From assembly GCA_020348065.1 (NCBI GenBank), contig CP070742.1, positions 527,893 through 569,465 of the forward strand: a stretch of DNA of 41,573 nt, in the 5' to 3' direction. A program made the translations under genes and the position numbers. Below are positions 35,431-38,746 of this stretch, piece by piece; position 1 is the stretch's first letter; the number at the start of each line of letters is the position of its first letter. The notes beneath the pieces were generated by a model. The model had not been told where the DNA came from. It saw only the letters and a program-made list of their open reading frames with translations, and made no database searches. Source of the stretch: Candidatus Zixiibacteriota bacterium (GTDB lineage Bacteria > Zixibacteria > MSB-5A5 > UBA10806).

Positions 35431-35460
35431 AAAATAAAAAGTCCGCCCGAAAGCGGACTT
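35431..35460 (-). terminator. Intrinsic terminator of the histone-like gene
   Basis: On the minus strand AAGTCCGC pairs with GCGGACTT (35453-35460 and 35439-35446) and is followed by TTTTATTTT. It lies about 30 bases after the stop codon at 35491. Confidence 0.85.
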
Positions 35461-35490: not shown

Positions 35491-35640
35491 TCAGCGTTTG
35501 CGTTTCTTCTTAGCCGTTTTCTTCTTAGCCGTTTTCTTCTTGGCTGTCTTCTTCTTGGCAGTCTTCTTCTTGGCTGTCTTCTTCTTGGCGGTTTTCTTCT
35601 TGGCGGTTTTCTTCTTGGCTGTCTTCTTCTTAGCCGGCAT
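35491..35640 (-). CDS. 49-residue histone-H1-like protein of TAKKK repeats
   Basis: This small gene runs from ATG (35638-35640) to TGA (35491-35493). The protein is MPAKKK, then eight exact TAKKK pentapeptides, then RKR. In the DNA this is a 15-base tandem repeat with only third-position variation (AAG/AAA, GCC/GCT, ACA/ACC/ACG/ACT), so selection keeps the protein sequence. A full ribosome binding site, AGGAGGTGA, lies at ideal distance, and a terminator follows. Such Lys/Ala/Thr repeats resemble histone H1 tails and bacterial Hc1- or AlgP-type proteins, so DNA or RNA binding by charge is likely (inference). It follows the GxxExxY gene by 21 bases and shares its probable sigma-54 promoter. 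The start MPAKKK is shared with the SWIB protein at 25554-26030. Confidence 0.88.
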   Translation of the reverse strand: MPAKKKTAKKKTAKKKTAKKKTAKKKTAKKKTAKKKTAKKKTAKKKRKR

Positions 35641-35661
35641 GAATTCACCTCCTCTCAAAAT

Positions 35662-36057
35662 TCATCGTTTTATGGTTTTTATCTCCAAGATATTCTTGGA
35701 AAAATTGACAATAAGCCCTTTTTTCAACCTTATTGATTTCAATATGCTTCTCAGTTTCGATTCCACGATATCCGTTAGATGATCGTCGGTGGAAATTAAA
35801 ACAACCAGCGATTTATCCACCACGAAATCCAGGTTGTATTCTCCCGCCACCGATCCCTTATAGGATAGCTTTATATTTTTGTGGCTTTCAAATGGAATAT
35901 CGCGAAGCCCGAATTCGTGCGCCAGAGCCCTGCTGTATTCCTTTTTTCCAAATCCCAGTCCCATATTCTTATGCACCTCAAGGGCGGAATTAATCACCTG
36001 AGACTGCAGGTCATTTATTACGGTTTTGGTGTCTATCACTAACTCGCTATCTTTCAT
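35662..36057 (-). CDS. GxxExxY-family protein lacking the signature and catalytic residues
   Basis: This 131-residue protein has the length and layout of the GxxExxY (PD-(D/E)XK-like) family: INSALEVHKNMGLGFGKKEY, ALAHEFGLRDIPFESHKNI, YKGSVAGEYNLDFVVD, and LKKGLIVNFSKNILEIKTIKR. In my alignment the signature Glu is Lys (G35-x-x-K38-x-x-Y41). The catalytic ExK, normally VELK after the Asp strand, reads VVLIS (L87, S89). Only D77 is kept. The protein is therefore probably inactive as a nuclease and may serve in binding. No good ribosome binding site precedes the ATG. A sigma-54-type promoter lies at 36081-36097, and the histone-like gene follows after 21 bases. Confidence 0.8.
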   Translation of the reverse strand: MKDSELVIDTKTVINDLQSQVINSALEVHKNMGLGFGKKEYSRALAHEFGLRDIPFESHKNIKLSYKGSVAGEYNLDFVVDKSLVVLISTDDHLTDIVESKLRSILKSIRLKKGLIVNFSKNILEIKTIKR

Positions 36058-36080: not shown

Positions 36081-36097
36081 CGCAAATATCATGCCAA
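36081..36097 (-). promoter_or_regulatory. Probable sigma-54 (-24/-12) promoter
   Basis: The minus strand reads TTGGCATGATATTTGCG. It has GG and GC separated by exactly ten bases, with flanking TTGGCA and TTTGC. The consensus is TTGGCACG-N4-TTGCW. A start would fall near 36070, about 13 bases before the ATG of the GxxExxY gene. The neighbouring upstream gene encodes a sigma-54 activator. Confidence 0.6.
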
Positions 36098-36196
36098 AAA
36101 AATAGCGGATACTCTATTATCTATGTAATTCATTTAATGACATGCAATTAAAAGGATAGAATGGTATCTTGTTGAATAACAATAAATTAAAAATTC

Positions 36197-36271
36197 GCGA
36201 CATGGACGTCGCATTATCTATAAGAAAGTTACGGGAAAAAAATTTCTCCCTATAGCACGCGGTGTGACACC
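36197..36271. promoter_or_regulatory. Possible activator sites upstream of the sigma-54 promoter
   Basis: Two short inverted repeats lie about 110-190 bases upstream of the -24/-12 element: GCGAC/GTCGC at 36197-36212 and GGTGT-G-ACACC at 36261-36271. The distance suits enhancer sites bound by sigma-54 activators. The arms are only 5 bp, so this is a weak call. Confidence 0.25.
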
Positions 36272-36294
36272 AGGGTCGCATGTATATACGACAA

Positions 36295-38076
36295 CTAATC
36301 TTTCGCTCCTTTCTTCGTTTGTAACGGCTCCTTAACATTGGCCCGATTTAAAATCCTCTGGAACTGTTTTCTGTGCATACCCCCCATTCTGGCCGCCGCC
36401 GATATATTACCCCCCGACGACTCCAGCAGGTTTATCGCGAAATTACGCTCTAACGGTACGATTGTCTTTTCCCACAACTCTTTTTTATAATCATTTAATT
36501 CCTTATGCGTATTGGGTATTCTTTCGTATTTCAAACCGTTTCTTATTACGGTATCGGGAAGTTCATTAGGAGTTAAAATATCGCCTTTGCATAAAACAAC
36601 AGCCCGCTCAATTATATTCTCGAGCTCCCTGATATTACCCGGATACCGGTAGCTCTTCAGGTAATTAAGGGCGGTTTCGCTTAACGATGAAATTTGCTTA
36701 TCGTTTTTTTCAGCATATACGCGGAGAAAGTGGTACGCCAGTGTCTCAACATCACCCTTCCTCCTGGATAGAGGCGGCAGGTTTATGGCTATTACATTTA
36801 TTCTATAGTATAGATCATCACGGAATTCGCCGGTTTCGACCATCTTCATTAAATCTTTCTTGGTGGCCGATATTATTCTAACATCCGCTCGTTTCAATGT
36901 TGTCGAGCCCAGAGGTTCGAACTCATGCGATTGCAAAAACCTCAAGAGTTTGACCTGCAATAACGGGGACAACTCTCCGATCTCATCCATGAATATGGTG
37001 CCCTTGTCCGCGATCTCAAATTTCCCCGGCTTGCGGCCGACCGCACCGGTAAAAGCTCCCTTTTCATATCCGAACAATTCGGACTCCAGAAGCGTCTCCG
37101 GAATCGCCGCGCAGTTTATGGCGACAAAGGGATGATCTTTCCTGGCCGAATTATAGTGAAGCGCCCGGGCCAGAAGCTCTTTGCCGGTTCCCGATTCTCC
37201 CTCGATCAAAACGGCGCTCTCCGTTTCCGCCACGTCTGCCACTGTGGCCAGGACTTTCCTTATCTGGGGAGAACTGCCTTTGATCTCCTCGAAATCATAT
37301 TTCTCCCTTAAATCCTCTATTAACGATTCCCCGTAATCCTCCAGAGCCGAAAAAAGTCTCTCCGATTCCACCGAAATAGCTATTTTGCCGGTCATCGTTT
37401 GAAGCAGATCGAGATCGAATTTTGTAAAACCGCTATCGTTACGAACCGAATATAAAATACCGAGAATGTCTTCACCCGTTTTCAGCGGAACGCAAATAAT
37501 ATTTCCCCCTCCGTCATCAGCGTCAATGCTTATGGGGTCTCCCGTGGATAACACCGCGTCCGCTATTGGCTTGGAAAACTTATATTTGTTATTCGAACTG
37601 CTCTTTAACGACGAATCGTATTTAAAAATGATTTCGCCCTCTTCCCCCGTTATCTGCAGCGACGCGTAATCGCAGGCCAGAATCTCGGTGGTGGTCTGCA
37701 CCACCCTTTTCAAAACCGATCGAAGGTCCCTTTCGGATGTTACGTCGATGGAGAACTCATACAGAGTTTTATAAATGTCTCGTTCCTTGGAGAGATACTC
37801 AACGCTTGATTTCAATTTATCGTATTCCCGAATCAGTTTGGCGACACGGGTATTCAGCGAATCCTCGAACCCCGAAAGCTTCTTTTCCACTGAATCGATT
37901 TTTTCGTTCAGTACGGTATATTGTCTGGGCCTTTCCTTCTCTCTTGTCTCGGTTAGATAATCTTTCAACGTGGAAATAGAATCGAACGACCTTTTTATCT
38001 GCGTCGCCGATTCTTTTTTAAGCTGCTTTAAGTTGGCGGCAAATTTCTCGCTGGTCTTTCCGATCGTCGCTTTCAT
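36295..38076 (-). CDS. Sigma-54-dependent transcriptional activator (GAF, AAA+, Fis-type HTH)
   Basis: In this 593-residue protein, residues 1-105 are predicted coiled coil (many K/E, for example LNEKIDSVEKKLSGFEDSL). Residues about 106-242 form a GAF-type sensor domain. The AAA+ core (about 265-495) has Walker A GESGTGKE at 293-300, the sigma-54 contact loop GAFTGA at 340-345, Walker B IFMDEIGEL (D364, E365) and an arginine-finger region (FRDDLYYRINV). The Fis-type HTH is at about 545-585 (NLLESSGGNISAAARMGGMHRKQFQRIL). It would open promoters for sigma-54 RNA polymerase in response to a signal sensed by the GAF domain. No histidine kinase is adjacent and no receiver domain is present. The nearest candidate target is the unit starting at 36057. 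Confidence 0.94.
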   Translation of the reverse strand: MKATIGKTSEKFAANLKQLKKESATQIKRSFDSISTLKDYLTETREKERPRQYTVLNEKIDSVEKKLSGFEDSLNTRVAKLIREYDKLKSSVEYLSKERDIYKTLYEFSIDVTSERDLRSVLKRVVQTTTEILACDYASLQITGEEGEIIFKYDSSLKSSSNNKYKFSKPIADAVLSTGDPISIDADDGGGNIICVPLKTGEDILGILYSVRNDSGFTKFDLDLLQTMTGKIAISVESERLFSALEDYGESLIEDLREKYDFEEIKGSSPQIRKVLATVADVAETESAVLIEGESGTGKELLARALHYNSARKDHPFVAINCAAIPETLLESELFGYEKGAFTGAVGRKPGKFEIADKGTIFMDEIGELSPLLQVKLLRFLQSHEFEPLGSTTLKRADVRIISATKKDLMKMVETGEFRDDLYYRINVIAINLPPLSRRKGDVETLAYHFLRVYAEKNDKQISSLSETALNYLKSYRYPGNIRELENIIERAVVLCKGDILTPNELPDTVIRNGLKYERIPNTHKELNDYKKELWEKTIVPLERNFAINLLESSGGNISAAARMGGMHRKQFQRILNRANVKEPLQTKKGAKD

Positions 38077-38394: not shown

Positions 38395-38746
38395 GTTGGC
38401 GGACGTCCCCGTCCGCCAACATACAGTTGGTGTCGGTAGACGAGCTACCGACCTACAAAAATACCAGGTGTGGTGGCAGTTCTCCGTATCTGCCACCTCC
38501 AGCCGTCAAGTGCGGGGACTTGACGGCACCCGGACCATACAGTTGGTGCACCGGGAGGTACACCAACCACTCAGATACCGGAAAAATGTAGGCGGGGAGT
38601 TTGATGAGCTCAGTCGAATCGAGCTTGTCTCCCTGCAATTGGTGTCGGTAGACGAGCTACCGACCTACAAAAATACCAGGTGTGGTGGCAGGTCTCCGTA
38701 CCTGCCACCTCCAGCCGTCAAGTGCGGGGACTTGACGGCACCCGGA
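38395..38746. repeat. Array of perfect stem-loops containing a 108-bp direct repeat
   Basis: A perfect hairpin at 38395-38420 (10-bp arms, 6-base loop) is followed by direct repeats at 38427-38534 and 38639-38746 (offset 212). Each unit holds three stem-loops: GTCGGTAG/CTACCGAC, GGTGGCAGGT/ACCTGCCACC and CCGTCAAGT/ACTTGACGG. The two units differ at only two of 108 positions, and these face each other in the middle stem (T and T at 38480/38489; G and C at 38692/38701). The spacer (38535-38638) holds further imperfect hairpins. No open reading frame explains the pattern. Confidence 0.85.

Follow-up and report, generated by a model that had tools for sequence, protein, structure and literature searches.

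A GxxExxY-family protein without its catalytic residues, paired with an H1-like peptide behind a predicted sigma-54 promoter in Zixibacteria

What does a nuclease-like protein do once its catalytic residues are gone, and why is it kept? The question is raised by a minus-strand open reading frame at 35662..36057 of the window, by which we mean the whole stretch of 41,573 nucleotides of Candidatus Zixiibacteriota DNA that was analysed. The frame starts with ATG, has no internal stops and encodes a protein of 131 aa that belongs to the GxxExxY family and lacks the glutamate of the family's name. In the available portions of the literature, passing mentions of this name were found, and no functional study of GxxExxY proteins.

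Queried without its first Met, the window protein scores 81.6 bits against PF13366 (PDDEXK_3; cut-off 22) and 88.5 bits against TIGR04256 (GxxExxY; cut-off 35), far above both thresholds, and its frame is the only PF13366 match across the 3.74-Mb genome. Its motif reads G35-F-G-K38-K-E-Y41, i.e., G-x-x-K-x-x-Y instead of G-x-x-E-x-x-Y; E40 is acidic and lies two residues past K38, yet it does not occupy the motif position. In an alignment with canonical members, the ExK column of the window protein is L87-I-S89, and D77 alone is left of the four core residues of an active PD-(D/E)XK site (K38, D77, L87 and S89 here). Over positions 38, 77, 87, 89, 101 and 105 the window protein has K-D-L-S-K-I, against E-D-E-K-Q-Y in nine of the ten readable canonical members. 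The canonical set comprises 11 members, one of which (L122) has a broken frame and was excluded from the tree and from the counts past E38; E38 is present in 11/11, D77, K89, Q101 and Y105 each in 10/10 readable members, and E87 in 9/10, since L017 carries K at that position. The first-pass annotation had named a Lys in place of the eponymous Glu and L-x-S in place of ExK, and these are the residues found (K38 and L87-I-S89). Relocation of the catalytic residues elsewhere in the protein was rejected, given that the alignments put the canonical catalytic columns at the substituted positions. No new invariant acidic residue missing from canonical members was seen in the 16-member clade alignment (see below): every clade member has E27, E48 and E57, yet these residues mark no new site because they also occur in 5, 9 and 8 of the 11 canonical members, respectively. 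The prediction that the window protein, which belongs to the GxxExxY (PD-(D/E)XK) family, is catalytically dead is well supported by these alignments.

Structure prediction, in agreement with the earlier view that the fold pattern is kept, returned a PD-(D/E)XK-like fold. From a 16-row alignment, AF2 built five models of which one was good (pLDDT 80.8) and four were poor (40.5-44.4), so a deeper alignment of 21 rows was used, with which five of five improved (pLDDT 71.8-84.3). The best model (pLDDT 84.3, pTM 0.76) comprises the elements H16-32, H38-51, E56-66, E69-80, E84-89, H96-109, E113-119 and E124-130 and contains the core alpha-beta PD-(D/E)XK fold. Its best PDB structure match is SSO0001 (4ic1_G; Z 10.0, rmsd 3.2, 98 residues aligned), which we take to be a Cas4 protein, and Foldseek matched 4ic1 chains with E of 1.5e-4 to 5.0e-4 and TM of 0.47-0.53, at a large rmsd over a gapped alignment. 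The next structure matches, many of them nucleases, have Z below 8, a level that according to the tool may mean a common arrangement only. By sequence, no PDB chain was matched up to E 1.

Orthologues were found in 16 genomes of Zixibacteria, a group of uncultured bacteria, and a tree that also includes ten canonical members gathers all 16 in a single clade (100/100). When the 16-orthologue alignment was run against 132 genomes of the class, matches fell in 17 genomes; the best match exceeded 195 bits in 16, and every other GxxExxY match in the class stayed below 88 bits. The named relatives are Candidatus Zixiibacteriota or candidate division Zixibacteria at 10/10 loci; eight named-record copies that duplicate genome copies were counted once, and 7/8 plasmid records were taken in (H8 left out). 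G35 and Y41 are present in 16/16 orthologues, E38 in 8/16, K89 in 11/16 and Y105 in 1/16, and position 77 is D in 5, E in 10 and Q in 1. E87 and Q101 are each found in 0/16 (position 101 is K in 15 and R in 1), so that the whole clade has lost the Glu of ExK and the Gln of QxxxY; E38 and K89 are additionally gone in part of the clade, the window's family included. The eight orthologues with E38 all retain K89, with E (seven) or Q (one) at position 77. Fixation of the substitutions among orthologues thus applies to the ExK Glu and the QxxxY Gln and not to E38. Describing the protein as having lost GxxExxY, as the first-pass annotation did in its title, is apt for the window protein and, because E38 survives in half of the clade, overstates the loss of the eponymous Glu. 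Its proposal of a role without catalysis is likewise well supported for the window protein and is less sure for the eight orthologues that combine E38 with K89.

The frames are intact in 16/16 orthologues, and their alignment contains 24 invariant columns and clade-specific conserved residues, e.g., N31, L34 and A71. Of the 91 possible pairs, 11 were computed, and dN/dS was 0.011-0.055 in the eight with finite dS; L007-L025 (dS 2.84) is near saturation, and the three saturated pairs gave pN/pS of 0.23-0.35. Because such dN/dS values denote strong purifying selection, this is a preserved protein and not a pseudogene, and the earlier claim that the substitutions are not simple decay is borne out by them as well as by the kept AF2 fold and the conserved locus. 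The charge of the protein is not conserved (pI 5.8-9.4 across the clade), for which reason DNA binding by it is unproven. The groups of the GxxExxY tree follow genome families, and a tree of the activator described below, into which G014, G036 and G046 were entered as their longest open piece only, returns the same f1, f4 and f14 groups. A recent mobile origin of this copy was considered and rejected, as the tree follows genome families and neither PHROGs nor PADLOC gave a match up to E 1. A scan of viral contigs with one canonical member found no relatives, and no match to one canonical member was found in phage records. In genome G050, which carries a clade member, a canonical GxxExxY gene (L020/L021) is split over two frames.

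The GxxExxY-like gene is followed on the same strand, 21 nt past its stop codon, by an open reading frame (35491..35640, minus strand) for a Lys-rich, H1-like peptide of 49 aa with AKKKT pentamers (MPAKKKTAKKKT...KRKR). By inspection, the peptide has a strong Shine-Dalgarno sequence, AGGAGGTGA (35645..35653, minus strand), whereas the GxxExxY-like gene has no clear one, with TTCAAGTTACACGAAACGTT ahead of its ATG; the peptide should hence be made in excess. A consensus scan placed an intrinsic-terminator-like hairpin of 9 pairs with a T-rich tail 3' of the peptide (35439..35460, minus strand). All 16 clade loci have a GGAGG-type strong ribosome-binding site and a polybasic frame downstream on the same strand, the start codon lying 21-67 nt past the stop of the GxxExxY-like gene, and 15/16 encode a Lys-rich peptide with a start (15-146 aa). 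The remaining locus, L025/L051 of genome G131, has a Lys frame without a start after its ribosome-binding site, and the frame that can be started is Arg-rich. The peptide is just 15 aa long in the three f14 genomes and 27 aa in the sister species, against 49 aa in the window. No polybasic frame was found within 350 bp of the canonical GxxExxY genes in 11 loci, two of which have short downstream flanks (107 and 427 bp). The suggested association with a histone-like peptide is therefore strongly supported as a genetic coupling.

A pattern of ribosome-binding site and MxAKKK-like start occurs in 14/132 class genomes, whereas the reversed pattern, run as a control, has no match in them. Of its 18 matches, 13 fall on this peptide, in 12 clade genomes and in G007 (see below), the pattern missing the peptide in the clade genomes G010, G014, G019 and G131; the other five are proteins with a Lys-rich start and then a Cys-rich stretch. 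In sister genomes, L103, L104, L105, L108 and L119 have MPAKKK... starts ahead of short Cys-rich modules (CxxC ... CC), possibly desulforedoxin-like, with no sigma-54 site. The window peptide reaches 15.2 bits against Pfam HC2 (PF07382), below the cut-off of 40, and its likeness to HC2, as judged from sequence, is one of composition and pentamers.

Candidate sigma-54 promoters were scored against the sigma-54 promoter consensus with weights set for this analysis. The consensus agrees with a passage of PMC4641369. A predicted -24/-12 site, TGGCATG-N4-TTGC, was identified by pattern and conservation at 36082..36096 (minus strand), 24 nt ahead of the GxxExxY ATG, and TGGCAYRN4TTGC has one match in the window against 0.08 expected. 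The site is conserved upstream of the orthologues: [TC]GGCA[CT][AG]-N4-TTGC begins 39-100 nt ahead of the start codon in 16/16 loci, and all 16 occurrences in 567,792 strand-bases, both strands included, are at this promoter, with none elsewhere in the loci. By contrast, none of 11 canonical GxxExxY loci has a sigma-54 site within 250 bp of the gene. The genome has only two other TGGCAYG-N4-TTGC sites in its 3.74 Mb, L127 (10461-10475) and L129 (1844446-1844460). A sigma-54 gene is present (PF04552, once in G000), together with a GAFTGA-bearing activator.

Farther upstream lie two dyads, both likely enhancer sites: TGCGAC-N6-GTCGCG (36196..36213, minus strand), whose first base is 117 bp upstream of the -24 element, and TGCGAC-N6-GTCACA (36263..36280, minus strand), 184 bp upstream of it. 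TGCGAC-N6-GTCGCA or close relatives were found in 16/17 loci (the 16 of the clade and G007; L025 has none), paired in 9/17, at 91-184 bp ahead of the -24 element, a placement in which they look like the activator's enhancers. The same criterion gave no dyad elsewhere in about 283,000 bp of those loci, a zero background that is post hoc because the criterion was written after the first dyads had been seen. In its strict form, TGCGAC-N6-GTCGC, the dyad is found at a single place in the whole 3.74-Mb genome.

The likely operon regulator, recognised by profiles and orthologues, is a sigma-54 activator at 36295..38076 (minus strand) with a GAF domain, an AAA+ domain with GAFTGA and a weak Fis-type HTH (21 bits, just below the Pfam cut-off of 22). 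It shares GAF, AAA+ and GAFTGA with NifA-type sigma-54 activators, and its best NCBIfam match is TIGR01817 nifA, but at 363.6 bits it falls below the cut-off of 528.85, and the spacing of the dyads is unlike that of the NifA site, TGT-N10-ACA. Among 58 relatives, a set without the clade genomes G130 and G131, an orthologue is present in 14/14 clade genomes and in 2/44 others, G007 and G036 (Fisher p 1.2e-11, kinship ignored); matches exceed 370 bits in 16/58, the next best reaching 334. The contig of G036 ends inside the activator. In the gap upstream of the window's activator gene there is a 111-nt direct repeat (38424-38534 and 38636-38746; 97% identical, 212 nt spacing).

An activator-family gene adjoins the GxxExxY-like gene in 13/16 loci, and a VanZ-like ORF lies downstream in 13/16, with hisS and aspS farther on in part of them. 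The f14 loci and one f10 locus have a 5'-nucleotidase-type gene in between, and in the three f16 loci the pair and promoter are set among other genes. At L086 (G046) the activator orthologue is on another contig than the operon, with its C-terminal part in a different frame (frameshift or assembly error). At L084/L037 (G014) a stop interrupts the activator frame, and Lys-rich ORFs lie on both sides of the GxxExxY-like gene, one after it and a second between it and the activator. The sister genome G007 has kept the activator, the dyads, the sigma-54 site, a 21-aa peptide and VanZ, and the GxxExxY-like gene is absent; tblastn in the gap gave a best E of 0.10, which is not significant, and the whole genome holds no match. 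Since G007 has lost this gene and retained promoter and peptide, the gene is dispensable; of the two outputs the peptide is the more constant, and the dead nuclease is an optional accessory. For the same reason, an essential antidote to the peptide, a role that was also considered for the GxxExxY-like protein, is argued against.

In the reading that we favour, the GxxExxY-like ORF and, after it, the peptide gene would together form a sigma-54 operon of two genes. A signal would reach the activator encoded upstream, which would bind the paired dyads and open the sigma-54 promoter, and one short transcript would run across both genes. This transcript would yield some GxxExxY-like protein and, from a far stronger ribosome-binding site, the H1-like peptide. 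The most probable task of the peptide is to coat or condense nucleic acid, if not some other polyanion, and that of the dead nuclease fold is to tune the action of the peptide by binding nucleic acid, or the peptide itself, without cutting. To the whole, a sigma-54-switched operon for a polybasic nucleic-acid-binding peptide and a catalytically dead accessory, we assign a probability of about 0.45. The anatomy and regulation within it are very probably right, and the biochemical role is put forward tentatively. Several observations speak against the whole: the unconserved charge, the presence of E38 and K89 in eight orthologues, the gene loss in G007, the 15-aa peptides of f14 and the startless Lys frame of L025. 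The locus could also be an inducible bacterial nucleic-acid condensation module, in which a dedicated, single-target activator switches on a minimal H1-like peptide and a nuclease fold turned into a nucleic-acid adaptor that does not cut, with activator, promoter and peptide as the core and the dead nuclease as a retained accessory; this is possible, though less likely than not.

The same observations can be read otherwise. The GxxExxY-like protein may bind protein instead, either by holding the polybasic peptide, in the manner of a chaperone or an inhibitor, or by regulating the activator through feedback, and its fixed pairing with the peptide in 16/16 loci, its near-neutral charge across much of the clade and clade-specific residues such as N31, L34 and A71 would suit such a partner; G007, which has activator, promoter and peptide and lacks the gene, counts against it, and we regard this as unlikely while granting it a real chance. 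The target of the peptide, for its part, could be polyphosphate or another granule and not the nucleoid, making the operon one of storage under starvation. A Lys-rich peptide is a generic polycation, and the H1-like AlgP sits on polyphosphate granules and spaces them according to a passage of PMC9239181; but AlgP is longer and has a different repeat, and no polyphosphate gene is seen in the operon, which leaves a granule target improbable.

If the clade had stayed nucleolytic by remodelling its active site, with the window protein as an extreme member, this would explain the eight orthologues in which E38 and K89 stand beside E or Q at position 77. Yet the loss of E87 and Q101 is complete in the clade, the window protein has D77 alone of the four core residues, and no newly invariant acidic residue absent from canonical members was seen; on this balance we consider retained nuclease activity of this kind quite improbable. 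That the gene is what remains of a mobile GxxExxY gene in decay is scarcely credible: the stepwise loss of catalytic residues and the disappearance of the gene from G007, where promoter and peptide persist, are what decay might leave, but the low dN/dS, the 24 invariant columns and the 16 intact frames contradict it, as does the pattern of substitutions, and simple decay was ruled out.

The window protein is alike to the GxxExxY family in sequence and predicted fold and differs from it by the replacement of E38, E87, K89 and Q101, and its clade is tied to a Lys-rich peptide and a sigma-54 promoter, a tie seen in 0/11 canonical loci. The H1-like proteins Hc2 of Chlamydia and BpH1 of Bordetella have Lys-rich pentamers in variable number, as a part of PMC2848022 describes, and the peptide resembles them in pentamer repeats that vary in number; it is much shorter in most loci, falls below the HC2 cut-off and sits in a sigma-54 operon with a nuclease-fold gene. 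The AlgP tail, too, is H1-like and is linked to polyphosphate granules (PMC9239181, in part). In Chlamydia trachomatis, an sRNA controls both the H1-like HctA and DdbA, which binds DNA, is reported to have nuclease activity and in which its authors found no conserved domain (PMC8343073, in the portion available). Likened by these descriptions, both systems join an H1-like protein to a second small protein under shared control, DdbA being DNA-acting; an sRNA and reported nuclease activity there stand against a sigma-54 switch and a predicted dead nuclease here. In the available portions of PMC2848022, PMC9239181 and PMC8343073 no such gene pair or switch was found, and no description of this operon was found among the literature matches listed.

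The GxxExxY-like gene, the peptide and the switch together point to a nucleic-acid-handling system. For the GxxExxY family, a clade that has shed catalytic residues and is nevertheless constantly accompanied by an H1-like peptide and a sigma-54 switch supplies a first partner, and a first condition, that can be put to the test. Should the operon turn out to condense nucleic acid in response to a signal, bacteria outside Chlamydia would have a compact and dedicated means of packing the nucleoid that needs only two small output genes.
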